A model generated the notes under the pieces. It was given only the letters and a program-made list of their open reading frames with translations. It was not told the origin of the DNA and did not search any database. This document shows, piece after piece, positions 7,490-40,908 of a stretch of 41,362 nucleotides of DNA. Position numbers and translations under genes: made by a program. Origin of the DNA: a virus; IMG/VR virus record IMGVR_UViG_3300027852_000080, positions 1-41,362 of that record; one strand, 5' to 3'. Positions within the stretch are counted from its first letter, which is position 1; each line of letters begins with the position of its first letter.

Positions 7490-7978
7490 ATGACTGACAT
7501 ACAGTGGGAAGCGCATACAGCGACAACTGATTTTTCGGAAACTAACCCCGTGCAAGACATGCTGGCCGAACGAGGGCCGGACATGATCAAGGCGACAGAA
7601 GCCGCCGAAAAGCAGATAGGGGGTGCGGAATGCCCTGTGAAGGTGCAGACGTGGAACCTGTTGCTGATGCCTCTACAGGCACCAAAAGAAACGCGAAGCG
7701 GGATAATCTTGTCGGACACCACAGTAAATGCGATGGAGCATAACAATTACGTGGCTAAGATAATCAAGATGGGGCCGATGGCTTTTACCGTAGACCGGAT
7801 ACGGTGTGAGGATCGCGAAGTGGATGCAGACAACATCCCCAAAGTAGGGGATTGGGTTGTGGTCAGCCGATTATCGGGGCAACGGATCAACTACAAAGGG
7901 GTGCGAATGAACGTATGCACCGATGACTCTGTTATTTTGGTGGTGGAAAACCCAACCGCCTGCTACGTGATGGTTTAA
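7490..7978 (+). CDS. GroES-like co-chaperonin
   Basis: This 162-residue protein matches the GroES (Cpn10) layout: a strand WNLLLMPLQAPKET (about 55-68) equivalent to the N-terminal strand and the lead into the mobile loop, a hydrophobic SGIILSD segment like the GroES GIVL tripeptide that docks on GroEL, then IPKVGDWVVV and YKGVRMNVCTDDSVILVVE matching the late strands. It carries about 50 extra N-terminal residues. Phage co-chaperonins such as T4 gp31 replace GroES so that host GroEL can fold the capsid protein; the place upstream of scaffold and capsid genes suits that. The start has a clear GAGGAG site. The family call is by eye but the order of motifs is good. Confidence 0.75.
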   Translation: MTDIQWEAHTATTDFSETNPVQDMLAERGPDMIKATEAAEKQIGGAECPVKVQTWNLLLMPLQAPKETRSGIILSDTTVNAMEHNNYVAKIIKMGPMAFTVDRIRCEDREVDADNIPKVGDWVVVSRLSGQRINYKGVRMNVCTDDSVILVVENPTACYVMV

Positions 7979-7990
7979 GGAGAGGATGAG

Positions 7991-9013
7991 ATGAGTATTG
8001 ACACACCAGAAAGAGACGAGGGTTTTGGGAATTTGGAAGACTTAGGTGATGGCGACCTGGAATCACAAGAAGAATTTGAGGACTTACACCCCGCCGAAGA
8101 AATGGCAGACGAAGTAGGACTCCCTGTGGACGGGGGCAGCGATGACTTGGGCGCGGAGGAGTTTGAACTGGGGGAGGAGGAACCTGACCCAGAGGAAGGG
8201 GAGGAGGAACCTGACCCAGAGGAAGGGGAGGAGGAACCTGAAGAAGAACTTGAGATGGCGGACGATACCGCCCAGCAGATTGCACAGCAGACTATTGCTG
8301 ATTTGGAAAACCAGTTAAGGGAGGCTACCCAGACTAACCAAACCCTGATGAACGACCGAGTGTCTACCGAGTTAACTCAAGTTACGTCAGAAATCGACAG
8401 CCTCCAAAAAGACTTGGTAGCCGCTATAGAGGAAGGAGATGCTAAAACCCAAGCGGAAGTCCACGTCAAAGTGACCTCTGCAACCGCTCGAAAAGCACAA
8501 CTGGAGCAGTATAAACCGGACGCACCTTCCGCTCCAACCCCACAGAAAGCGCCAGCCCCTGGTGGGCATGTGGTCAGCCGGTATCCTAAAGCTAATGAGT
8601 ATCTTGCGATAAACACCTGGGTTGGATCGCCCACGCATGGTCCGCAAACACAAACCCTGCAAACCATAGACAGGGCGTTGATGGCTGAGGGTTTTCACCC
8701 CAGCACGGATGAGTATTACGTGGAACTGGCGAGTAGAATGGACCGGAGGTACCCTGGATTGATGAAACTTAAAACGGCGAAAAGCGCACCTGTGAAGGAG
8801 AAGAAAGCCAAGAAAGCCGCCACCAAACCGGTGTTGTCTGCGGACAGAGGGCGAGTATCCCGAAAAACCAAGAAACGCCAGAAAACCACGTTGATGGAGG
8901 AGGACCGGGAAGTGATGCTGAAATTCGGATTAGACCCCCGAAATCCAGAACACCGAACGTCGTTTCTGAAGAACAAACACGAACGCTTACGCAGCGAAAC
9001 ACAACGAGCTTGA
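7991..9013 (+). CDS. Putative scaffold protein
   Basis: This 340-residue protein lies three genes before the capsid gene. The first 90 residues are extremely acidic and include tandem copies of EEPDPEEGE. Residues about 95-175 are a coiled coil (QQTIADLENQLREATQTN and following). A proline-rich linker comes next, then a small folded part, and the last 80 residues are very basic (KEKKAKKAATK). A charged rod with a basic C-terminal capsid-binding end is the usual build of phage scaffolds, which shape the procapsid and then leave. An in-frame ATG after the acidic part (about 8253) could give a shorter form. The start has AGGAGAGG upstream. Confidence 0.65.
   Translation: MSIDTPERDEGFGNLEDLGDGDLESQEEFEDLHPAEEMADEVGLPVDGGSDDLGAEEFELGEEEPDPEEGEEEPDPEEGEEEPEEELEMADDTAQQIAQQTIADLENQLREATQTNQTLMNDRVSTELTQVTSEIDSLQKDLVAAIEEGDAKTQAEVHVKVTSATARKAQLEQYKPDAPSAPTPQKAPAPGGHVVSRYPKANEYLAINTWVGSPTHGPQTQTLQTIDRALMAEGFHPSTDEYYVELASRMDRRYPGLMKLKTAKSAPVKEKKAKKAATKPVLSADRGRVSRKTKKRQKTTLMEEDREVMLKFGLDPRNPEHRTSFLKNKHERLRSETQRA
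8174..8241 (+). repeat. 27-base tandem repeat in scaffold gene
   Basis: Two identical 27-base units lie at 8174-8200 and 8201-8227, with a partial third to 8241. The repeat keeps the frame and encodes nine acidic and proline residues (EEEPDPEEG) each time. It probably arises by slippage and changes only the length of the acidic tail. Confidence 0.9.
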
Positions 9014-11306: not shown

Positions 11307-11459
11307 ATGCGCTCGAAACTCAAAGCCATTATCGAGGCTTCAAAACCTAAACAGAAAGAGGCTTCAAAACCTAAACAGAAAGAGGCTTCAAAGCCTAAAC
11401 AGAAAGAGGCTTCAAAGCCTAAACAGAAAGAGGCTTCAAAACCCACGAAAACTAAATAA
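11307..11459 (+). CDS. Lys-rich octapeptide-repeat protein, 50 aa
   Basis: This short gene starts with ATG behind AGGGGA and encodes a ten-residue lead (MRSKLKAIIE), four perfect copies of the octapeptide ASKPKQKE and a final ASKPTKTK. The product is very basic, has no hydrophobic core and is probably disordered, resembling histone H1-tail-like or Ala/Lys/Pro-rich DNA-coating peptides. It is the first gene after the capsid terminator and promoter candidate, so strong expression is possible. Packaged DNA condensation or binding to an acidic partner are possible roles; neither is shown. The good site and the in-frame repeats argue that it is translated. Confidence 0.65.
   Translation: MRSKLKAIIEASKPKQKEASKPKQKEASKPKQKEASKPKQKEASKPTKTK
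11337..11432 (+). repeat. 24-base tandem repeat, four copies
   Basis: Four 24-base units lie at 11337-11360, 11361-11384, 11385-11408 and 11409-11432, with a fifth partial unit beyond. They differ only in a wobble base of one Lys codon (AAA or AAG). Each encodes ASKPKQKE. The near identity suggests recent expansion by slippage or unequal exchange. Confidence 0.95.
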
Positions 11460-11506
11460 CCAACACTCAACTGCGGCGATACGCCGATTCCATAGGAGAA
11501 TTGCAT

Positions 11507-27266: not shown

Positions 27267-27520
27267 TGTCTCGCGGAGAGCAACTGCCCAGGATAACGTC
27301 TGTCGAGCCAGTTGAGTTGTTGCGCCAGTTGAATTCTATGGTGGACCTACTTAACCGGCGACTAGCTTCGGCGGAGCAACCATCAGGTAAGGAGTTTTGG
27401 GATGTTGCAAACCTAACCAGATCCACTACAATGGATGCTAGTTCAGCCACAACCGACGAAGTGCGGGATTGCTTAGGCACCCTCATTTCGGACATGAAGA
27501 CAAGAGGAATTATCCGATGA
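27266..27520 (+). CDS. Hypothetical protein, 84 aa
   Basis: The gene begins inside the stop of the preceding gene (TAATG) with GAAGG upstream. The product is a small, soluble, mostly helical protein: an N-terminal helix (VELLRQLNSMVDLLNRRL, about 16-33), a polar linker and a short second helix. Its stop overlaps the acetyltransferase start as ATGA, so the two are co-translated. No family is recognised. Confidence 0.65.
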   Translation: MSRGEQLPRITSVEPVELLRQLNSMVDLLNRRLASAEQPSGKEFWDVANLTRSTTMDASSATTDEVRDCLGTLISDMKTRGIIR

Positions 27521-28017
27521 CGCACCCAGCGCCGACGAAGGACACCGCCGCCAGTATTCAAGAGGCTACGGCGTATGACGTGGCTAACATCGCAAAATTG
27601 CTAGAAGAATGGATCCCCTCCGCAGGTATCGCATACCCTGAGGTAGATAAAAATAGTCTATGCCAGTGGGTGCTAGACACAATCGTTAACGGGAAAGTAT
27701 TTTTAGCAGTGAAGGGGGGCCGGATTTTAGGTGTCCTCGGAGTGACAGTAGACGTATTTCCGTGGAATCCCTATAAGAAGGTGTTGAAAGATAGTTTCTT
27801 TTACGTGCCCAATGGCCAGAGAAAACTCGGTGTCGGCGACAGATTAATGAAGGAGGCTCAGGCCATGGCCGCTGATTTTCGAGTACCCTTGTTTATGAAT
27901 ATCGTTAGCGGGGCCTCCCCTGACAGGATAGACCGTTTTTACCAGATAAAGGGTGGGGTGTACTTAGGGGGCACCCTTGCTTTCGGGTTTGAGGAGCAGG
28001 AGGGTTCACATGGGTAG
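27517..28017 (+). CDS. GNAT-family acetyltransferase
   Basis: The start is the ATG at 27517, which overlaps the previous stop as ATGA. The 166 residues have the GNAT order: helix with an exposed DVANIAKLLEEW, strand KVFLAVKGGRILGVLGVTVD (60-79), and motif A QRKLGVGDRLMKEAQ (101-115) with the Q/R-x-x-G-x-G acetyl-CoA pyrophosphate loop. The C-terminal strands follow. Substrate is unknown. GNAT proteins occur among internal-protein genes in some podoviruses, so a role in modifying a virion or host protein is possible but unshown. The next gene starts inside its end. Confidence 0.75.
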   Translation: MTHPAPTKDTAASIQEATAYDVANIAKLLEEWIPSAGIAYPEVDKNSLCQWVLDTIVNGKVFLAVKGGRILGVLGVTVDVFPWNPYKKVLKDSFFYVPNGQRKLGVGDRLMKEAQAMAADFRVPLFMNIVSGASPDRIDRFYQIKGGVYLGGTLAFGFEEQEGSHG

Positions 28018-28987
28018 TTTATTTGGGTCTAAAAAGAGTCCGACGCAGACCACCACTAACTCAGTCCCCGCATACATATCGAACGCAGGTAAAGCCGCAG
28101 CGGGAATCGCGGGAGAGTTAGCCGACCAAGAATACTTAAAGTACCCAGGAACCAGAGTCGCGGGGACCTCCCCCATGACCGACTTGGCCTTCGAGCGAAC
28201 CTTAGATTCTTCAGGTGCGTACCAGGACAACATTAACCGAGCATCAGACGGCACTGGGGCTGCATACGGCATAGAAAACCAAGTGCTGGCATACACAGAC
28301 CCCAATCGCAGCTATGCGCCTGCCATGTGGGATACGGAACAAGCGAACAAGTACATGAACCCGTACATCGAAGGTGCGTTGGAGCCTGCGGCCCGTGAGA
28401 TGCGGGACGAGCACGATGTCACCGTCAACAAGGATAATGCCTCAGCAGCCTCCCAAGGAGCCATGCGGGGTAGCCGGTCCGCTGTCCTCGAAGGTATCCG
28501 AGGGGAGAACATGATTCAGGGGATGAATGACCTGTACGCTGGAGGGTATAAAGATGCCTATGCGTCTGCGTTAGACGCATTCAACTTAGATTCCAATAGA
28601 GCCTTAGAAACCGCGAAAGTTAACGAAGGCATCCGTTCAGGGGAGCTTGACCGAATGCGTGCGGTAAGTGGAGACTTACGAGACTTGGCGGGTACAGATT
28701 TGAGTATCGCAAACACAGGGAGCACTTTAAGTGGTGCCGACATCGGAAGGCTGTTTGCCGCAGGAAGTGTGGACCAAGAACAAAACCAACGAACGGCAGA
28801 CTTGGGGTACAGTGATTTCCTTGAAGAGAGGGATTGGTTGTCCCGAGGGCTGAATTACTACTCTCAGGTATTAGGTTCCGCACCCAATGAGGGAACTAAG
28901 ACGACATCAACTAAGGGGGGTGGGTCGAGCGCACTATCTCAAGTGGCGGGGTTGGCCTCCGCCGCGTCAAGTATATTCAAATTGTAA
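28010..28987 (+). CDS. Internal virion (DNA ejection) protein, 325 aa
   Basis: The likely start is the ATG at 28010, eight bases before the previous gene ends and behind GGAGGG; a longer upstream frame has no better site. The product has the Ala/Gly/Asp/Asn-rich helical make-up of DNA ejection proteins, including TEQANKYMNPYIEGALEPAA near 118-137 and a long GSRSAVLEGIRGEN helix. A Gly/Ser tail ends in a hydrophobic ALSQVAGLASAASSIFKL segment. It is followed by two more ejection-type genes and the giant protein. Confidence 0.75.
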   Translation: MGSLFGSKKSPTQTTTNSVPAYISNAGKAAAGIAGELADQEYLKYPGTRVAGTSPMTDLAFERTLDSSGAYQDNINRASDGTGAAYGIENQVLAYTDPNRSYAPAMWDTEQANKYMNPYIEGALEPAAREMRDEHDVTVNKDNASAASQGAMRGSRSAVLEGIRGENMIQGMNDLYAGGYKDAYASALDAFNLDSNRALETAKVNEGIRSGELDRMRAVSGDLRDLAGTDLSIANTGSTLSGADIGRLFAAGSVDQEQNQRTADLGYSDFLEERDWLSRGLNYYSQVLGSAPNEGTKTTSTKGGGSSALSQVAGLASAASSIFKL

Positions 28988-30945: not shown

Positions 30946-33900
30946 ATGGGGGACAAGTCTTTTGCAGATGAAATCTGGGGTTCGCTACCCAGCGACGACT
31001 CCCCACCTGAAACGCAAACCTCTGGAGGGAGCAGTTTTGCCGATGAGATTTGGGGGACGTTGCCCGAAGCAGACCCACTCACGCCTACGGAATTAGAACC
31101 CCAACTCGAAGAAGAGCCTGACCCCGTTCTGGCGGGTTCGGATAACGAAACCTCTTTAGGGGGTCATTTCGCACGGGGGGTAGACCAGTTACAGGGGTTC
31201 GGGTATTCCGCACTCGAAGCGGCGGGAGAGGGACTTGAGTTAGAAGGTCTCACCGATTTCGGACGTGAGGGGCGTGAACGCAACATCGACGAAGCGGCGG
31301 AAAATCCCCCATCCCAATCCTTCTCAGACGCAAACTCCGCAGGAGACTACGCTACGTGGGCCAAAGAAACATTCGTGTCTCAGGCACCCCTAATGGCCCC
31401 ATCTTTAGCTGGTGCTGGAGCTGGAGCCGTAGTGGGCGCACCTCTTGGCCCGATTGGAGCCACAGTGGGCGGTGTCGTAGGGGCTTTAGTGCCGTCACTG
31501 GTGCTGGGCGCGGGAGAGGTCCAACAGAAAATCAAAGAGAAAGACCCTGAAGCCTCAGCCCCCTCCCTTGTTTTCGGCGCGGGAGCCACAATCGCGGCCC
31601 TAGACTCAGCATTTCCAGGGAAAATGGGGTCTTTTCTAGTCAAGAAGCTGGGGACAGACATCGCTGAGGAAGTGGTCAAAAAAGCACTCAGTAAACGACT
31701 CGCAACCGAAGTGCCCTTGAACATGACAATGGAAGGGACGACGGAAATCGTACAAAGCGCCATATCTGAAGCGGCTGCGTCCTCCGCCACAGGTGCCCCC
31801 ATCGACTGGGCGGAGTGGAAAGCCGGAGCGGTTGAGGAGTTCGCGGCAGGAGCCTTGATGGGTGGCAGCATCACTACGGCGGCAGAGGTGTACGCTGCGA
31901 AAAAAGGCGCGTCAACCCCTCCTGAAGGAGACACCCCACCCTCTGAAAGGGAGTCAAGGGTTTCTTCCGTTGTGGAGAACCACCCTGCGGTGAAAGAAAT
32001 CCAAGACCCCGCCCAACAGCAAGCGGTTGTTGAAGCGATTAAGGCCATGGCCTCCGAGGATGGAGTGCTTGCTCGGATAGACTCAGTGTTAGCTGAGGAA
32101 GGAGGGTCTGATGTTGCTCGGTCAGAGGTAGATGTTTACCTTTCAGAGTATATACGGGACGCTGTTTCCGAGGTGGCCCAAGACACGGCACCGCCTAAAG
32201 GTGAACCGGTGCCCGATACCACGTCTTTCGGCCTTAACGAAGAGTTTCCTGAAGCAGTGGCCGCCGCACAAAAAGAAAACCTCACTCCCGAGAACGCTGA
32301 ATCTTTAGCCGCCCAAATGGACGCGTTTGAATCTGGGCGCAAACCCGCAGTGTTAATCACTGAAGGGGAGCCGATGCCTGTGATTCCTGAAGGGGCTAAA
32401 GTCGAAGAGATTCCTGGCCGAGGGCAACTCATCTACCGAGATGAGCAGACCCTTGAAGCGGCAAAGAATAACAAAATGGGTGAAGCCCTTGGTTTAGGCA
32501 TTGATGAAAAACCGATGACTGACCAAGTGGTGACAGCCCGAAATTCTGAAGGGGTGGTGGTTACAGATACCGCCACAGACGGTCGTCCTGAAGTCGTTAA
32601 CGCCGCAGGAGTTTTAGCGGGGGAAGGCGGGACTGTAGAGCACCGGACGGTAGACGAAGCTTTGTCCGAGCGAACCCAAGGTGCCGAGGGGGGGAGTTTC
32701 CAATCCACCGTGATGGCTGATTTAGAAAGAGAAATAGTGAGAGGGCAGTACGCGCCAGTTTCGGATATTAGGGGAGAGGCTGCCCCTGAAACTGCACCGG
32801 TTACGGATAAAGCGACCTATGACGAAGTTCAACAGGAAATAGACGATCTGACAGACGCATTGGAGAGAAAATATGGGGATGGCTTTATTACGGAGAACTT
32901 GAACTACGACGTTGCCCAAGCTTTAGGCAAACCTCACCAACTGCCTGAGGGGTACGATACCTCAGATTTAGACCGGCTATCTTCGTTACAGGACAAACTA
33001 AATGGTATCGGCGACAAAGAACTCGCCGAATTCAAAAGACGTGTTGTTAAGGATTCGGGGTTGCCGGAACCCCTCGCGACAGCGGCGTTAAAGGTGATGG
33101 GTGTGAGGGATTCCTACCCTTTCGCGATGAAGAACCTGAGAGGTTTAGGAACCTCTGTCCCGCAAACTCTGACAGATCTATACAACTTTTTCGATTCCAG
33201 AAAAGCAAAATCCCCCGCAGGTACTTCGCTAGATAGGGTTTACGCTAAATTTTACTGGGGTGGGACTGGAGAAAACCCCGCGCTAATGGCTTCGTTCACT
33301 CACGATTCAGGAAAAAAAATCGCTGCCGACAGTGAAATCCTGACATCTGTCGAGAGAATAGCGAACGCCGTTTATTCGGCTCGGGGTGAAGAACCAATCG
33401 ACTTGTCTAAAACTACGTCTAAACCTAAAAAACTTGACAAGAGTTTAGACGTTAAAACCCCCATAGATATTGCAGCACACGAAGCGGCGACTAGCCCTAC
33501 AAACGCCAAACCGCAGCCTTCCGAAGCTCAAATAGAAGCGGGAAACTACAAAAAAGGTGACGTGAAGGCTTTTGGTCTCGACATCGCAGTGGAGAACCCT
33601 AAAGGATCTACCCGATCAGGGGTTGACACAAAAGGGAAGCCGTGGGAGACCACGATGCAGCACCACTATGGGTACGTTAAGCGGAGCAAAGGGGCTGACG
33701 GGGACGCAGTGGACGTTTTCATCGGGCCTAAAGAGCAGAGCAATAAAGCATTTATCGTTGACCAGAAAAACGAAAACGGCAAAGGGTTCGACGAGCATAA
33801 GGTTATCTTAGGTGCTGAGTCCCAGGTGGAAGCCGAGAAGATCTACGACTCCAACTATGCCCCAGACTGGAAAGGCCGTGGCGCGACCACCGAAGTTACT

Positions 33901-36900
33901 ACTGACCAACTGAAGGAGTGGGTGGCTAAGGGCGACCTCACCAAACCGGCAAAAGGCCAGTTGAATAAAACCAGAGAGCGAGTCTCCGCTGGGGATAAAG
34001 TGGTAGACCTTGACCCTTTTTTGAAAAAGAGCAAGCCCTCCGCGAAACCCGCACCTTCGGACAAACCGAAAACCGTAGGCCGTAAGCCAGCCGCACCTGG
34101 CCGCAGCACGGTGACTGACGTACATGAAAAAGTGAATGCGGTAAAGGGGATGCAAAAACTGCTAGACAACGGTGAAATAGTAATCGTGCAGTCCGCGAAA
34201 GACTTGCCAAAGAAACTCGCAGGGGATGCACAGGGGGTGTACGACCCAGAAACAGGAAAAACCTATCTAGTTGCTGATGCTCTGAAACCAAACCAGGTGC
34301 AGAGCGTGCTGTTGCACGAGATGACCCACCGAATGTTTATGCAAAACCCTGACGTGCAAGCCCAAATGGTGGGTGAGGTAGGGGAGTTCTCGGTGATCAT
34401 GAGCAAGATTGAACGGGGGGACCTGAAGGGGCCTTACAAGCGGGTGTTTGATGCCGCGATGTCCCGCATCCCAGAAAACACCCCGCAGGCGGACAGGGTG
34501 GAGGAATTCGCAGCCTACGTTGTCTCGGAGTTCAACAGCGGGGCAACACTTCCCGCCCACCTAGCTGCATGGGCCAAACGCGTTATGGCTAAAATAAAAG
34601 CAGGTTTAGCGGCGGTAGGTATGCCTTTGAAAGGGATTTCTCCTGCGGATTTAGACCTCGCGGTACGAAGAACAATTGCACAGAAAGAACCGGCGAACCC
34701 GCACCTCAAGCGAGAACGCGCTTTGTACTCCAAGGCTAAAGACGACCGAAGACGCCACTGGTACAAGAGACCCGCTGGGATGTCTGACATCGACCAGATT
34801 CGGGACAAAGCCCTGTGGACAAAAGCTAAACTGTTGGGCCGTAAGTGGCTGACCCCTGAAGGGAATTTGGACGCAAAAGTGTACCAATTAAATACACTGA
34901 GGCAGGGTGACAATGTTGCTGAGGATTTGGAGGCGAAATTCCTGTTAAAGGGTTTTGACAAAGCGGTGAGGGGTGCGTACAAACACACCCTGAAAAGTAA
35001 ACTGTCTGTTTTGGACAAAGCGACCCGTCGAAAATTATCGGATGCGCTGAAGGTGCCTGACATGGCAGACATGGACCCATCAATTCCAGATTCAGTCAAA
35101 GTCCACCTCCTCGCCATGAGGCAGCACGTAGATAAACTGTCGATGATGTACGTGGACTTAGTGAGAGAGGAGGCGGTGTTGGGGCTTCAGTCAGGAACCC
35201 CCGCACTGCGACGAGCGGTACTCGGCGCTCGATTAATTGCAGAAAACAGCGAAGCCGTGGACGCGCACAACTCCGAGGCAAAAGCCTCTGGCAAAGACCA
35301 ACCGCAGCGCCGGAAAACCCCGAAGGCGATCCACGAGAGAACAAAAAAGGAAGTCTCTGAGTTAATGGATAGCTCCGAGGACCCTCGAACCCTGTATAAA
35401 GAAGCGGCTGACATCGCCCGTAAGCTTGGCACCATCGATACCATCACGCACAATGCCGGAAGGTACGTGCTCCGATCATACCGGATGTACGAGGACGGGG
35501 GTCTGTGGTTGAAGAAGATGCCAGCTAAAGTGAAAAAAACAGCGGCTGATTTTGTTCGCAGCGAAATGCTGGAGCACAACGACAAAGCCGCTGGGTGGCC
35601 TGCGGAAAAACTAGAAAACGAGGTGCGTAAGGCCCTCGAAAACCTGATACCCGACAAAGCTCGAGGGGGCGACTCGGTTGCGTCTATGATTATGGCCCCG
35701 AAAATGGGCGTAGATATGCAGCACATCCTCACTCGGCGAAAAGACATCCCTGTAGAAATCAGGGAATATCTAGGTGAGTACCATGACGCAGCGTACAACT
35801 ACGCACACACCGTTGAAAAGGTGGCACACCTCGCCACCTCAAAACAGTTTTTCAATGAAGTGGAGAAAATGGGTGTCGGGGAATTCCTGTTCAAGGACGA
35901 AGACCGCCCTTCGGGAGCGACCACCTCTCTCGGGGGCGAGAAAAATCAGTCCATCGGTGCTCTTGCGGGGTATTACACCTTTCCTGAGGTAGCTGAGGCT
36001 TTCACGGAGCACATGAGACCGGTGGACCTTGACGGAATTTTAGGAGCCTTAGTCCAATTTAACTCACTGGCCAAAATCAATATGACGGTGTATAACCCGC
36101 CCACGTCGTCTCGAAACTTCATATCCGCTGGCGGTTTCGCCCTGATGAACGGCCACCTGCGCCCCAGTAAAATTAAGCACGCCGTTAAGATGGGTATGTC
36201 TATGCTGGGTGCTGGGGGGAAGGAAGCCAAAGATTACCGGAAAGAGTTATCAAGGTTGCGGGTGATTGGGGACGGCGTTCGAGCGGGGGAGGTCGCACAA
36301 ACGTTTAGAGACGCTAAGGTTTACTCTTTGGCTAATGACGAAATAGGGGAATCCACGGCAACGATTGCGTCTAACGCAGGCCGCACCTTAATCCGAAAAT
36401 TTAAAGGTGTTTTTGAAGGCATTTACTTGTTTGGGGACGACTTTTGGAAAGTTATCGGTTTCGAGGCAACGGTTTCGGACTTGATTAAATATAAAGGTTT
36501 AACTCGGGAAGAGGCTGCACCCATCGCAGCAAACCAAATTAGAAACACGTACCCAACATATTCAATGGTGGGCCGAGGCCCGAAAACGTTGGCCAGGTTT
36601 CCTGGGATGGGTATGTTCGTCAGTTTCCCGGCGGAGGTATTACGAACGTCGCCTAACATCGTCAGACAGGTGGGGCACGACTGGTCCAATGACATGAAGA
36701 TTCCCGCCGCCAAACGAGCCACAGGGATCTTCGTCATGACAGCGGGTCTCGCGGCAATGGTGACTATCGCTCGAAACCTGATGGGGTACGACGACGAGGA
36801 CGATGAGGCCGCTCGGGTTCTCGGTCCTGAATGGATGAAGAACTCCACCCTAATGTTCTTGCCCCGAGATGAGGAAGGCAACATGCGGTACTGGGACGTG

Positions 36901-38058
36901 TCGAACACGTATGCGTATAACTACTACACCCGCCCACTGATGGCTTTGCTCAGAGACCAACCTTTCGGCACCCGGTTGGCAGAAGCGTCTAAGTCGCTTG
37001 TCACTCCTTTTCTGGGAGAAGAGGCAGGCTTCAAGGTGCTTCGTGAGGTAGGCACCAACCGCAACGAGTGGGGGCAAAAAATTTACTATGAAACAGACCC
37101 AACACCGGGGTCCACGGTAGGGCCTGCGACCAAACACATCTTCGACGGAATGAAGCCTGGATTCCTGAAATCACAGGACCGGCTGGCAAAAGGTGCCGAA
37201 CAGTACATCTCTGGGTCAGGCAAGCAATATTCTCTGTCCGACGAAATCTGGTCGTTCTTCGGTTTCCGGATGACAACGGTAAATCCTAAAGTGGCGCTAT
37301 TCTATAAAGCGTATGCTCTGTCGGATGCCAAAAGGGATGCCACCCAGTTGATGAAACGGGTCGCAGCCAAAGATATGAACGATGTCCCTGAAGCGGATAT
37401 TCGCAGTGCATGGATTAACGCAAACGCCATTGTCTATAAGGCACACCAAGACTTACAGACAGCCATACGCGCTTCAGAGAAGCTGGGCTTGTCCAAAAAA
37501 GACAAAGATTGGGTTCTCTCGGATAAAACCATGAAAGGCGCGATGAAAGCCTCGGGCCTCAGTGCAGATGCGTATGAGATAATACGATCCAAGGGTATCA
37601 GTAAAGCGGACATGGCGGCACTGGATAGCGGGGAAATCCCGATATGGACTCCCTCAGACCGCTTCTTTGATGGGATGCTCAGTAAGATCCATTTGATTAT
37701 CTCCGATGAAGAGTTACAAAAGACCATCGAAGGCCGATTGAGTGGCCGGGAAGAGTACATGCAAGACCTGCAACAGGAATTCGAGGACTCAATCGAATCC
37801 AAGAGGCAGCAACAGTTGCTGGATGAAAACGGGCTGTCGGTACCCGACACAGAGGGTCTCGACTCTGGCGAGGACCTGTCTTCGGTATTGTCTGGAAATG
37901 ACCCAGAAAAAATAACCGCCTATTTATCTGAGAACCAAGTGCCAAAAGATGATATTATTCGAGCAACCAAGGAAATCTCGCCAGCGTGGGCAGACATGTT
38001 AGCGCAAGCCCCGCCGGATTCAGTGACACTACTGAAGCACGCTGGCGTTTTGAGTTAA
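30946..38058 (+). CDS. Giant ejected polyvalent protein, 2370 aa
   Basis: The N-terminus holds two copies of SFADEIWG (residues 5-12 and 30-37), then a Gly/Ala-rich hydrophobic region (about 146-191) that could insert into membranes. Residues about 857-1003 resemble the pyrophosphatase-like domain (InPase type) of phage polyvalent proteins, with HYGYVKRSKGADGDAVDVF at 907-925 and Asp918/920/923. Residues about 1090-1220 form a zincin-like peptidase with HEMTH at 1124-1128 and a Glu in EEFAA (1186-1190) as probable third ligand. The last 1000 residues, including a hydrophobic span near 1925-1948, resemble large polyvalent-protein-associated regions. It is probably ejected into the cell with the DNA. 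The start follows the previous TAG directly; no Shine-Dalgarno is seen. Confidence 0.85.
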   Translation: MGDKSFADEIWGSLPSDDSPPETQTSGGSSFADEIWGTLPEADPLTPTELEPQLEEEPDPVLAGSDNETSLGGHFARGVDQLQGFGYSALEAAGEGLELEGLTDFGREGRERNIDEAAENPPSQSFSDANSAGDYATWAKETFVSQAPLMAPSLAGAGAGAVVGAPLGPIGATVGGVVGALVPSLVLGAGEVQQKIKEKDPEASAPSLVFGAGATIAALDSAFPGKMGSFLVKKLGTDIAEEVVKKALSKRLATEVPLNMTMEGTTEIVQSAISEAAASSATGAPIDWAEWKAGAVEEFAAGALMGGSITTAAEVYAAKKGASTPPEGDTPPSERESRVSSVVENHPAVKEIQDPAQQQAVVEAIKAMASEDGVLARIDSVLAEEGGSDVARSEVDVYLSEYIRDAVSEVAQDTAPPKGEPVPDTTSFGLNEEFPEAVAAAQKENLTPENAESLAAQMDAFESGRKPAVLITEGEPMPVIPEGAKVEEIPGRGQLIYRDEQTLEAAKNNKMGEALGLGIDEKPMTDQVVTARNSEGVVVTDTATDGRPEVVNAAGVLAGEGGTVEHRTVDEALSERTQGAEGGSFQSTVMADLEREIVRGQYAPVSDIRGEAAPETAPVTDKATYDEVQQEIDDLTDALERKYGDGFITENLNYDVAQALGKPHQLPEGYDTSDLDRLSSLQDKLNGIGDKELAEFKRRVVKDSGLPEPLATAALKVMGVRDSYPFAMKNLRGLGTSVPQTLTDLYNFFDSRKAKSPAGTSLDRVYAKFYWGGTGENPALMASFTHDSGKKIAADSEILTSVERIANAVYSARGEEPIDLSKTTSKPKKLDKSLDVKTPIDIAAHEAATSPTNAKPQPSEAQIEAGNYKKGDVKAFGLDIAVENPKGSTRSGVDTKGKPWETTMQHHYGYVKRSKGADGDAVDVFIGPKEQSNKAFIVDQKNENGKGFDEHKVILGAESQVEAEKIYDSNYAPDWKGRGATTEVTTDQLKEWVAKGDLTKPAKGQLNKTRERVSAGDKVVDLDPFLKKSKPSAKPAPSDKPKTVGRKPAAPGRSTVTDVHEKVNAVKGMQKLLDNGEIVIVQSAKDLPKKLAGDAQGVYDPETGKTYLVADALKPNQVQSVLLHEMTHRMFMQNPDVQAQMVGEVGEFSVIMSKIERGDLKGPYKRVFDAAMSRIPENTPQADRVEEFAAYVVSEFNSGATLPAHLAAWAKRVMAKIKAGLAAVGMPLKGISPADLDLAVRRTIAQKEPANPHLKRERALYSKAKDDRRRHWYKRPAGMSDIDQIRDKALWTKAKLLGRKWLTPEGNLDAKVYQLNTLRQGDNVAEDLEAKFLLKGFDKAVRGAYKHTLKSKLSVLDKATRRKLSDALKVPDMADMDPSIPDSVKVHLLAMRQHVDKLSMMYVDLVREEAVLGLQSGTPALRRAVLGARLIAENSEAVDAHNSEAKASGKDQPQRRKTPKAIHERTKKEVSELMDSSEDPRTLYKEAADIARKLGTIDTITHNAGRYVLRSYRMYEDGGLWLKKMPAKVKKTAADFVRSEMLEHNDKAAGWPAEKLENEVRKALENLIPDKARGGDSVASMIMAPKMGVDMQHILTRRKDIPVEIREYLGEYHDAAYNYAHTVEKVAHLATSKQFFNEVEKMGVGEFLFKDEDRPSGATTSLGGEKNQSIGALAGYYTFPEVAEAFTEHMRPVDLDGILGALVQFNSLAKINMTVYNPPTSSRNFISAGGFALMNGHLRPSKIKHAVKMGMSMLGAGGKEAKDYRKELSRLRVIGDGVRAGEVAQTFRDAKVYSLANDEIGESTATIASNAGRTLIRKFKGVFEGIYLFGDDFWKVIGFEATVSDLIKYKGLTREEAAPIAANQIRNTYPTYSMVGRGPKTLARFPGMGMFVSFPAEVLRTSPNIVRQVGHDWSNDMKIPAAKRATGIFVMTAGLAAMVTIARNLMGYDDEDDEAARVLGPEWMKNSTLMFLPRDEEGNMRYWDVSNTYAYNYYTRPLMALLRDQPFGTRLAEASKSLVTPFLGEEAGFKVLREVGTNRNEWGQKIYYETDPTPGSTVGPATKHIFDGMKPGFLKSQDRLAKGAEQYISGSGKQYSLSDEIWSFFGFRMTTVNPKVALFYKAYALSDAKRDATQLMKRVAAKDMNDVPEADIRSAWINANAIVYKAHQDLQTAIRASEKLGLSKKDKDWVLSDKTMKGAMKASGLSADAYEIIRSKGISKADMAALDSGEIPIWTPSDRFFDGMLSKIHLIISDEELQKTIEGRLSGREEYMQDLQQEFEDSIESKRQQQLLDENGLSVPDTEGLDSGEDLSSVLSGNDPEKITAYLSENQVPKDDIIRATKEISPAWADMLAQAPPDSVTLLKHAGVLS

Positions 38059-38070
38059 GAGGAAAATACA

Positions 38071-38931
38071 ATGGTATACACACCAACTCAGTGGCAGAAT
38101 AATCGCACCCCTGCTCTCAATGAGGCTAACCTAAACAAACTGGAGCAGGCCGTAGCCGCCAATGACGTGGCCGTTACCGGTAAAGCGGCACTAAACCACC
38201 AACACACCACTTCGGACATCCCGGATTTGGATGCCTACGGGCAAGCGGTGGTGGATTCTAAAGATGCAGCAACGCTTCAGTCGGCGCAGGACTTTACCTA
38301 CAGCCAAGCAGTGGTGGATTCTAAAGATGCAGCAACGCTTCAGTCGGCGCAGGACTTTACCTACAGCCAAGCAGTGGTGGATTCTAAAGATGCAGCAACA
38401 CTTCAATCGGCGCAGGACTTTACCTACAGCCAAGCAGTGGTTGACTCTAAAGATGCTGCGGTTTTAGGTGTTGCTAATACTGGAGTAGCAAATGCAGCGA
38501 CAGCACAAGCCGCAGCCGATGCCGCCCAATCAACCGCAGATAACGCAAAAGAATTCGACGCAGGAACCAGGATGGTTTTCTATCAAGCCGCCCCCGTGGG
38601 ATGGGTTCAAGTTCCAATTCCCGATTGGTCTATGCTCATGGCGGGGACTAGCGGCGGCGGCTGGACTGGAGGTGATACGCAGCCATTCACTCACGAGCAC
38701 ACCACGGGGGATTTCGCGTTAACTGAAGCCCACAACGGGCCACACGATCACCCGTACACAGCAAACCCCGAAAGTGGTACCAACAGTAACGCCGGTGGTT
38801 CTGACTTACCCAGAAACTTCAATGCAGCAAGCACAACAGGCTCGTCAGGTTCAGGAGTCCCACATAACCACGGTGAAACTTCAACCATTACAGCACAATA
38901 CGCAACGGTGTTGATATGTCAGAAGTCGTAA
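38071..38931 (+). CDS. Tail fibre with tandem repeats, 286 aa
   Basis: The N-terminal 55 residues are an attachment-type domain (YTPTQWQNNRTPALNEANLN). Residues 58-120 are three near-identical 21-residue units and part of a fourth (QAVVDSKDAATLQSAQDFTY), probably a trimeric coiled or beta stalk. The C-terminal 120 residues carry the DAGTRMVFYQAAPVGWVQVP strand and His pairs (HEH, HDH, HNH) followed by YATVLICQKS, the well known fibre-tip type domain. It starts with ATG behind AGAGGA. Its end overlaps the next gene. Confidence 0.85.
   Translation: MVYTPTQWQNNRTPALNEANLNKLEQAVAANDVAVTGKAALNHQHTTSDIPDLDAYGQAVVDSKDAATLQSAQDFTYSQAVVDSKDAATLQSAQDFTYSQAVVDSKDAATLQSAQDFTYSQAVVDSKDAAVLGVANTGVANAATAQAAADAAQSTADNAKEFDAGTRMVFYQAAPVGWVQVPIPDWSMLMAGTSGGGWTGGDTQPFTHEHTTGDFALTEAHNGPHDHPYTANPESGTNSNAGGSDLPRNFNAASTTGSSGSGVPHNHGETSTITAQYATVLICQKS
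38242..38430 (+). repeat. 63-base tandem repeat, three copies plus partial
   Basis: Units of 63 bases lie at 38242-38304, 38305-38367 and 38368-38430, with a shorter fourth beginning at 38431. They differ at only a few bases (first Ala codon, a Leu-Gln codon pair). The frame is kept and each unit encodes 21 residues of the fibre shaft. Copy number can change the shaft length. Confidence 0.95.
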
Positions 38932-39218: not shown

Positions 39219-39512
39219 ATGGCTGAAGGCAAACGATCTCCCACGGCACACCGAACGCCTGCTCAAATACGTGCACACGGCAAAGGCTATCAGGCAACCC
39301 CTACCCAGAAGAAACGCAGAGCCAAGCGTAACGCCGCACGCGCAGCAGTGGTAAAGAAGAAAGGCGCGGCAGCCGTTCGGGGCAAAGACGTAGACCACAA
39401 AAAACCGCTATCTAAAGGCGGGACTAACGCCCCTGGCAACCTTCGAGTCACTTCAGTGAAGAAAAACCGGGGGCATGGAATGTCCAAAGGCGGTCGAAGT
39501 AAAGCTAAATAG
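39219..39512 (+). CDS. HNH-like nuclease, 97 aa
   Basis: The protein has a long, strongly basic N-terminal arm (QKKRRAKRNAARAAVVKKK, about 30-48) and then the phage HNH core: VDHKKPLSKGG at 58-68 with Asp59-His60, Asn74 in the APGNLRV segment and Asn83-Arg84. No cysteine pairs are present, so any zinc support is lost or not needed. HNH proteins nick DNA and often accompany terminases. The last eight bases overlap the end of the minus-strand helicase gene, so the two transcription units converge tail to tail. Confidence 0.7.
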   Translation: MAEGKRSPTAHRTPAQIRAHGKGYQATPTQKKRRAKRNAARAAVVKKKGAAAVRGKDVDHKKPLSKGGTNAPGNLRVTSVKKNRGHGMSKGGRSKAK

Positions 39513-40908
39513 CGGCCCCGCCATACCGCCTCACGCAATCCAGAAGCTCTTGTTCACTCTCAGCTTTGTGGTCTAGCATATCCACCACTAAGGTGTCCAC
39601 GGTATCTTTTGCCAGTATTCGGTGGATAACCACATCGTTTTGCTGGCCCCTACGAGGCAACCTGGCGTTCATCTGGTTGTATAGCTCCAAATCTGGCGTA
39701 ACACCAAACCAAACGATATGATGCCCCCCGTGCTGAAAGTTCAGCCCGTGCCCTATGGAAGCGGGGTGCCCTGCGAGGATCTTTATCTTACCCAAATCCC
39801 AACGCCCCTGCATCGCCACCATGTCTGCGTCAGACAACTTCCCGCTGAGGTGTTCCACTGCGGAGCCATACCGGTCGATAATTCGTTCTATGTCCGACTG
39901 GAAGGAGTAGGCTAGTAGTAAAGGTGCGTCACCCGTTCCATAAACAATCTCATCCAGAGCTTCCAGTTTCTCTTTATGCACTTCTTCCCACTCAGGGGAT
40001 TCTGGAGCTAGGTACATCGCCCCGTTTGCGAACTGTAAAGTCTTGCCGAACAAGACCCCTTTACTCAAAACCTCTAACACATGCCCTGAAGCCAACTCAT
40101 GCAGCATGTCTTTCTCCATGTCCGCGTACTCCTTCATTAACTTAGTGGACAATTGGACCGTCACATCGTTAAATTGTGTGGGGAATTTATCCGCCTCCAA
40201 AACACTGGTTATGTCAGACAACGCGTGGAAAATCTGTGTTTTGCCCACGGGTGTCGGATCATACTTTTCAAATTGTGTGTTCATGCGAGGAGCAAAGTAC
40301 GTCTGGTGATATACCCCTTTGTCCGTGCCCAATCGCGCCCCTCCGTCGATTAAAAGCATCTGGGAAAAAAGACCATCCAGCCCGTTAGGAGCGGGAGTCC
40401 CGGTCATCCCCATACGACGTTCGATGTAGGGGATTAAAGGCAGCATAGCGGAAACCCTCTTACTGGAGTAGTTTCGCAGTTTTGACATCTCGTCGAAAGC
40501 CACCATGTTGAAGGGCAGATAGTGCCCCTGGTTGAGGTACTTACTGATAAGGGTGTCGGCGATCCAGGCCATGTTTTCAAAATTAGTGATGTAAATATCT
40601 GCGCGGACCATCAATGCCCGTTCACGTTGCGCGGGAGTTCCTCGAACAATGGAAATCCTGAGATGTTTCAGGTGCTCCCATTTTTGGGCCTCTTGGAGAT
40701 ACACCAAAAGCACCACTCGAACAGGGGCGAAAATTAAAGCCCCGTAGACGTGCGCTGAAAATATCTGGTCTCGGATGGCCGTCAGTAAAGTCACCGTTTT
40801 GCCTTTACCCATGGGCCACCAAAGGTTCGAGTGCGCGTGGGTTTTTAGGTGCTGTACGCCGGTTTCTTGCTCCAGGGTCATCTCCGAGCGGGGCAGTGTG
40901 TTAGTCAT
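39505..40908 (-). CDS. SNF2-family helicase or translocase
   Basis: This 467-residue protein has the SNF2/DEAD helicase motifs in order: Walker A WPMGKGKT (residues 31-38), DEMS in VAFDEMSKLRN (139-142, in place of DEAH), MTGTPAPNG as motif III (168-176), and motif VI QMNARLPRRGQ (412-422) with two arginine finger candidates. Phage proteins of this type translocate on DNA and serve replication, recombination or packaging. It lies in a minus-strand operon with a nuclease. The start overlaps the end of the upstream gene by eight bases. The 467-residue length is short but complete. Confidence 0.9.
   Translation of the reverse strand: MTNTLPRSEMTLEQETGVQHLKTHAHSNLWWPMGKGKTVTLLTAIRDQIFSAHVYGALIFAPVRVVLLVYLQEAQKWEHLKHLRISIVRGTPAQRERALMVRADIYITNFENMAWIADTLISKYLNQGHYLPFNMVAFDEMSKLRNYSSKRVSAMLPLIPYIERRMGMTGTPAPNGLDGLFSQMLLIDGGARLGTDKGVYHQTYFAPRMNTQFEKYDPTPVGKTQIFHALSDITSVLEADKFPTQFNDVTVQLSTKLMKEYADMEKDMLHELASGHVLEVLSKGVLFGKTLQFANGAMYLAPESPEWEEVHKEKLEALDEIVYGTGDAPLLLAYSFQSDIERIIDRYGSAVEHLSGKLSDADMVAMQGRWDLGKIKILAGHPASIGHGLNFQHGGHHIVWFGVTPDLELYNQMNARLPRRGQQNDVVIHRILAKDTVDTLVVDMLDHKAESEQELLDCVRRYGGAAI

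Follow-up and report, generated by a model that had tools for sequence, protein, structure and literature searches.

How a phage chooses the proteins that it packs into its particle and injects has been worked out for only a few phages, T4 and P1 among them. The question is raised by a 41,362-base IMG/VR virus record (linear, possibly fragmentary; its whole length is called the window below), in which a giant gene comes last in a run of virion genes. As the preliminary description had it, the gene is one 7.1-kb frame, open throughout; it begins with an ATG directly after the stop codon of an upstream 488-aa gene and codes, without an internal stop, for 2370 residues. Residues 1–592 are identical in a second record of the same virus (L002). 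What kind of protein is this, and which part of it might bring it into the particle? The genes and protein segments that bear on the answer are given below in window coordinates.

27977–28987, plus strand: neighbouring DNA ejection protein (phrog_4287, E = 1.9e-14)
30946–38058, plus strand: giant polyvalent/ejection protein, 2370 aa, single open frame with PHROG virion structural and DarB-like matches
30958–30990, plus strand: candidate tag, copy 1, aa 5–15, SFADEIWGSLP (duplicated motif, 0/5000 shuffles)
31033–31065, plus strand: candidate tag, copy 2, aa 30–40, SFADEIWGTLP (10/11 residues equal; 3/9 degenerate codons equal)
31117–31887, plus strand: N-terminal region, aa 58–314 (phrog_6958 virion structural protein, E = 1.4e-26)
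31450–31521, plus strand: single hydrophobic Gly/Ala-rich segment, aa 169–192 (hydropathy)
33523–33924, plus strand: InPase domain, aa 860–993 (PF18823, E = 1.7e-51; invariant E883, R890, Y908, D918, D923, D949, E950 and K952)
34108–34545, plus strand: predicted zincin-type metallopeptidase, about aa 1055–1200 (alignment, model, weak library matches)
34315–34329, plus strand: HEMTH, aa 1124–1128, the sole HExxH in the protein
34504–34506, plus strand: E1187, downstream glutamate, invariant in the alignment
34786–37665, plus strand: C-terminal all-helical virion/ejection module, aa 1281–2240 (family, AF2, BFVD, homologue detected by MS/MS)
39505–40908, minus strand: convergent helicase (phrog_62, E = 4.7e-100)

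The run that the giant gene closes comprises a terminase, a capsid protein with a Pfam Phage_capsid_4 match, an SU10-adaptor-like protein (E = 7.4e-13), a phrog_3287 virion protein and, three genes upstream of the giant ORF, the phrog_4287 DNA ejection protein, which bears out the earlier placement of the gene at the end of an ejection gene run. The order of giant gene and convergent helicase is also found in pelagiphage HTVC027P and phage 023Pt_psg01. An N-terminal membrane segment was considered as a general trait of the family and dropped, since the hydropathy threshold was passed by only 7 of 88 members. A search of the window for RNA elements and tRNAs returned none. Elsewhere in the window, a GNAT-type acetyltransferase-like gene (27469–28017) lies inside the ejection gene run, a GroES-like co-chaperonin match (7490–7978, phrog_3188, E = 6.7e-9) lies among the head genes, and tandem repeats were found within ORF 7991–9013 (8171–8241, 27 bp × 2.6) and in the stretch that separates the ORF at 11501 from the capsid gene (11334–11443, 24 bp × 4.6). 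The gene next downstream of the giant one (38071–38931) carries a 63-bp tandem repeat (3.5 copies, 95% DNA identity) and, with its histidine-rich C-terminus, resembles a short tail fibre.

An InPase-like segment had been placed at residues 857–1003, and the Pfam search fully agreed: PF18823 matched with 174 bits (curated cut-off 26.8) over profile positions 1–134 of 135, with D918, D923, D949 and E950 present. When nine polyvalent InPases (48–56% identical to that of the giant protein) were aligned, E883, R890, Y908, D918, G919, D923, D949, E950 and K952 were invariant, and position 920 was D or E. The portal of Pseudomonas phage Pa193 (9b41) has an InPase domain too, with the corresponding motifs kept; it is C-terminal and falls in a stretch for which cryo-EM shows no density. 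Among the sampled lineages, InPase was seen in three, i.e., the window, L013/L111 and L019. The stretch before the domain (33490–33580, aa ~849–870, AATSPTNAKPQPSEAQIEAGNYKKG) is kept in the InPase proteins of L093–L096, whose architectures are otherwise different, as if InPase and linker moved as a unit. The roles proposed for InPase by Iyer et al. 2017 (PMC5512222) are clearing of PPi and hydrolysis of nucleotide-like signals; the present sequence data favour neither.

The segment downstream of InPase is predicted to be of zincin type, without a named family. In an alignment of the giant protein and nine relatives, H1124, E1125, H1128 and E1187 are invariant in all 10 sequences, most of the nine relatives having HExxxH in place of HExxH. 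The AlphaFold2 model of the segment (pLDDT 80.7) shows a helix, three strands, the active-site helix and the glutamate helix, so that HExxH, a downstream glutamate and the helix-strands-helix-helix order of zincins are found together. No significant zincin match was obtained with profile or fold searches: Pfam DUF6782, a "putative metallopeptidase", fell below the cut-off (E = 0.025 with the whole protein, E = 0.0021 with the segment alone), and the top PDB matches of Foldseek, which include the zincins ArdC, selecase, lethal factor and PPEP-1, all had E ≥ 0.095, the best being E = 0.095. The zincin-type label is thus given because of the conserved ligands and the family context, and not because of a significant library match. 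Accordingly, the zincin that the preliminary description had put at residues 1090–1220 is upheld by motif, ligands and model but not by the libraries; of the two domains, InPase (PF18823) alone gave a significant profile match. A second, degenerate zincin at aa 564–623 was rejected as a self-inflated iterative match (pairwise, 42 residues at E = 9e-5 without composition correction). In the family described below, HExx(x)H was present in 40 of 45 long members (≥1750 aa) and in 0 of 43 short ones, counts that are not dereplicated; this distribution suggests that the protease accompanies payload. As its role, Iyer et al. favour self-processing (PMC5512222).

The linking of the two domains with a podovirus ejection role had been put forward as the strongest candidate for a poorly described system, but it is not new. 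InPase and zincin are also paired in L013/L111 and in L096, so the pairing is not unique to the giant protein, and Iyer et al. 2017 (PMC5512222) had already proposed InPase and metallopeptidase domains, as well as packaging, for phage polyvalent proteins. The earlier reading is therefore plausible but already published as a proposal. We found no post-2017 anti-defence paper on InPase or zincin domains in the open-licence literature.

Long helical regions had been described on both sides of the enzymes, correctly so for the C-terminal half: the AF2 model of aa 1281–2240 is all-helical, with pLDDT 83.8 and pTM 0.84. A structure search with this model found no solved structure resembling it, and no Pfam match was found for the module, a point of difference from the polyvalent proteins of Iyer et al. 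2017. In the viral structure library BFVD, 69 models matched at E ≤ 0.001, the best being from Cellulophaga phi19:3. Many of these are named "large polyvalent protein associated domain", and one LPD38; other names refer to ADP-ribosyltransferase, zeta toxin, RelA/SpoT and transglycosylase domains. An assignment of the module to LPD38 (PF18857) was rejected, as neither the giant protein nor 36 module sequences gave a profile match, the controls of the 36-sequence search giving none either; the modelled module is linked to LPD38 at the level of fold only, through Foldseek and the one protein of that name.

A sequence scan of IMG/VR confirmed relatives of the module in 539 stretches, 80 of which were kept, and bacterial genomes contributed 33 further loci, including Pseudothauera, Azoarcus, Azomonas, Halopseudomonas, Pseudomonas, Marinomonas and Myroides. 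The lengths of complete members lie between about 1260 and 4027 aa. The module is constant among them, also in short members that lack payload, while most of the upstream sequence varies. In Cellulophaga phi18:3 (Baltivirus), gp123 (phrog_22602) shares the module (28% identity over about 720 aa), and its annotation as a virion protein is based on MS/MS. No InPase, HExxH or significant doubled tag was found in gp123, and its presence in particles thus speaks for the C-terminal module only. In the Pseudoalteromonas phage vB_PunP_Y3, the "ADP-ribosyltransferase" gene (L003; OR779980.1, 10495–12495), reported as a stand-alone auxiliary metabolic gene (PMC11654794), is the 3' part of a giant polyvalent gene, split off by an exact 1001-bp tandem repeat, which may be a genuine duplication or else an error of assembly.

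Taken together, domains of disparate type (InPase, zincin, helical module) are joined in one chain, and the gene lies among late virion genes. The phage polyvalent proteins of Iyer et al. (PMC5512222) likewise string together many unrelated effector domains in a single chain that is encoded by a late gene and presumably injected; they include members with InPase (PF18823) and zincin MPTase domains, neither a methylase nor a helicase being required for membership. By this architecture, by its late virion gene block and by the BFVD matches to proteins named for the large polyvalent protein associated domain, the giant protein can be classed, as had been suggested, as a new member of the phage polyvalent proteins, and it is probably packed in the particle and delivered at infection. 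The delivery of the enzymes by the virion, also part of the preliminary description, gains some support from the detection of gp123 in phi18:3 particles, with the limit that gp123 is without the enzymes.

Two features went unmentioned in the preliminary description, namely, the shared C-terminal module and a doubled motif at the N-terminus of the giant protein, whose self-similarity was not reached by any shuffled sequence. Relatives have doubled motifs of other spellings at their extreme N-termini: DLFDEFGID twice, NRFSKY/NRFAKY, FDPTGAMLD/FNPAGAMLD, LPSGFVLE/LPEGFVLE, NFFDQFD twice, FIPPSDAVE/FVPPSDALE and ISFEDTI three times. Longer doubled forms, of about 30 residues, are present in some relatives. 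At z > 4, doubling was scored in 17 of 48 members with dereplicated N-termini; in the loci of the first sample, the figures were 5 of 421 for other ORFs (≥200 aa) and 4 of 426 for windows internal to the same proteins (Fisher p ~1e-14). The controls were dereplicated solely by identical N-termini, with their z computed only at raw score ≥28. In the bacterial-genome sample, scored after the doubled pattern was already known, new doubled motifs were seen in L101, L102, L103 and L108, and in 0 of the short members. When all copies were pooled, 196 of 294 residues agreed between copies, and the codon was the same at 110 of 191 identical residues versus 93.5 expected from codon usage. Since codons differ between copies, most copies did not arise by recent duplication of DNA, and the peptide itself seems to be a non-random and maintained feature.

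The spelling is private to the lineage. DNA encoding FADEIWG was found by the IMG/VR scan in the same virus (L002) and otherwise only as chance matches away from N-termini, and the window has no convincing copy of the tag outside the giant protein. SLSDEIWSFFG at aa 2096 was considered as a third copy and discarded as weak and lying within a conserved stretch of the module; additional tag-like copies inside the protein are present in L010, L031 and L072. In L054, the upstream neighbour of the giant gene (L054:3224-6016) has a duplicated N-terminal tag of its own (EEEYILNGKIYKASDL.../QKNYSLGGKNYDKKTL...), spelled similarly to that of the giant protein; two proteins of one phage may thus share a tag. 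An earlier description of a doubled N-terminal motif was not found in the open-licence literature, though it may exist elsewhere, and the accessible passages of Iyer et al. 2017 (PMC5512222) do not mention one. The doubled, lineage-private N-terminal tag looks new.

What such a peptide may do is suggested by P1 DarB, the sole polyvalent protein we found whose N-terminal packaging signal has been put to the test, in which the first 30 residues suffice for packaging, residues 6–10 are needed and nine residues are too few, and for which the authors found no consensus packaging signal among Dar proteins (PMC9024508). Like the capsid-targeting sequence (CTS) of T4, the DarB signal is short, lies at the N-terminus of a protein that is packaged in the head and injected, and has no consensus between proteins; the T4 CTS is removed by the prohead protease. 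The tag of the giant protein fits a DarB-type signal in position and length, and by analogy with DarB we propose the doubled motif as a putative capsid-targeting tag. Inspection of the DarB N-terminus revealed no obvious doubling, in which it differs from the giant protein, and DarB was dropped as an example of a doubled tag.

We consider it moderately likely that the features of the giant protein belong to one scheme, whose tag function, ejection, self-processing by the zincin, and InPase activity and target we infer. The polyvalent protein would ride inside the head and be delivered with the DNA. The doubled peptide would dock it to a putative partner in the forming head, two copies raising avidity, and co-evolution of tag and partner would account for the lineage-specific spelling. 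The C-terminal helical module would be the virion/ejection chassis common to the family, and payloads would be swappable between tag and chassis, here InPase and then zincin. During or after delivery the zincin would cut the chain and release InPase, which would clear pyrophosphate or hydrolyse a nucleotide-like signal and so promote the expression of early phage genes or weaken defence.

The same protein might instead be packaged via its C-terminal helical module, the doubled peptide serving elsewhere, e.g., in threading the chain into the portal first or in binding a chaperone or an ejection protein. This we hold to be unlikely, yet to be taken seriously: the module is the constant part, present even in short members that lack payload, and encapsidation of the N4 vRNAP depends on its C-terminal region (PMC5512222). 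About two thirds of members, moreover, have no significant doubling, and since these are presumably packaged too, the doubled form cannot be essential. The sufficiency of the DarB N-terminus speaks against this explanation, as do the InPase proteins of L097 and L098, in which the doubled motif is present and the module was undetected, both being cut at the 3' contig end.

That the doubled motif is a neutral, functionless local duplication seems improbable. Phage genes duplicate easily, as the tandem repeat of the next gene illustrates, and in L063 the tag copies are near-identical in codons (14/15). However, the repeat of the next gene, with its high DNA identity, is the opposite of the codon-drifted copies in the window, where only 3 of 9 identical degenerate residues share a codon; control ORFs and internal windows show doubling far less often, and in the family it recurs at the very start of the protein, spelled in many unrelated ways. 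We give equally little credence to the idea that InPase and zincin are no longer enzymes and are kept as folded packing or binding domains. The location of InPase at the C-terminus of the Pa193 portal, without ordered density, and the poor scores of the zincin against known families would be in line with it, but residues of catalytic type are invariant in divergent members and in the Pa193 portal.

Extending the tag-targeted scheme, many phage polyvalent and ejection proteins may be addressed to the virion by short N-terminal peptides in two or three copies, those of each lineage matched to its own head partner, and duplication would make tags without a consensus detectable in sequence; we put this forward tentatively, at somewhat less than even confidence. 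The near-perfect co-occurrence of zincin and payload lends support to the idea of chains that may be cut into working parts. If the scheme is true, a doubled motif readable from sequence would predict injected effectors and their targeting tags in phages that have not been cultured, and it might also provide tags with which reporter proteins could be packed into phage particles.
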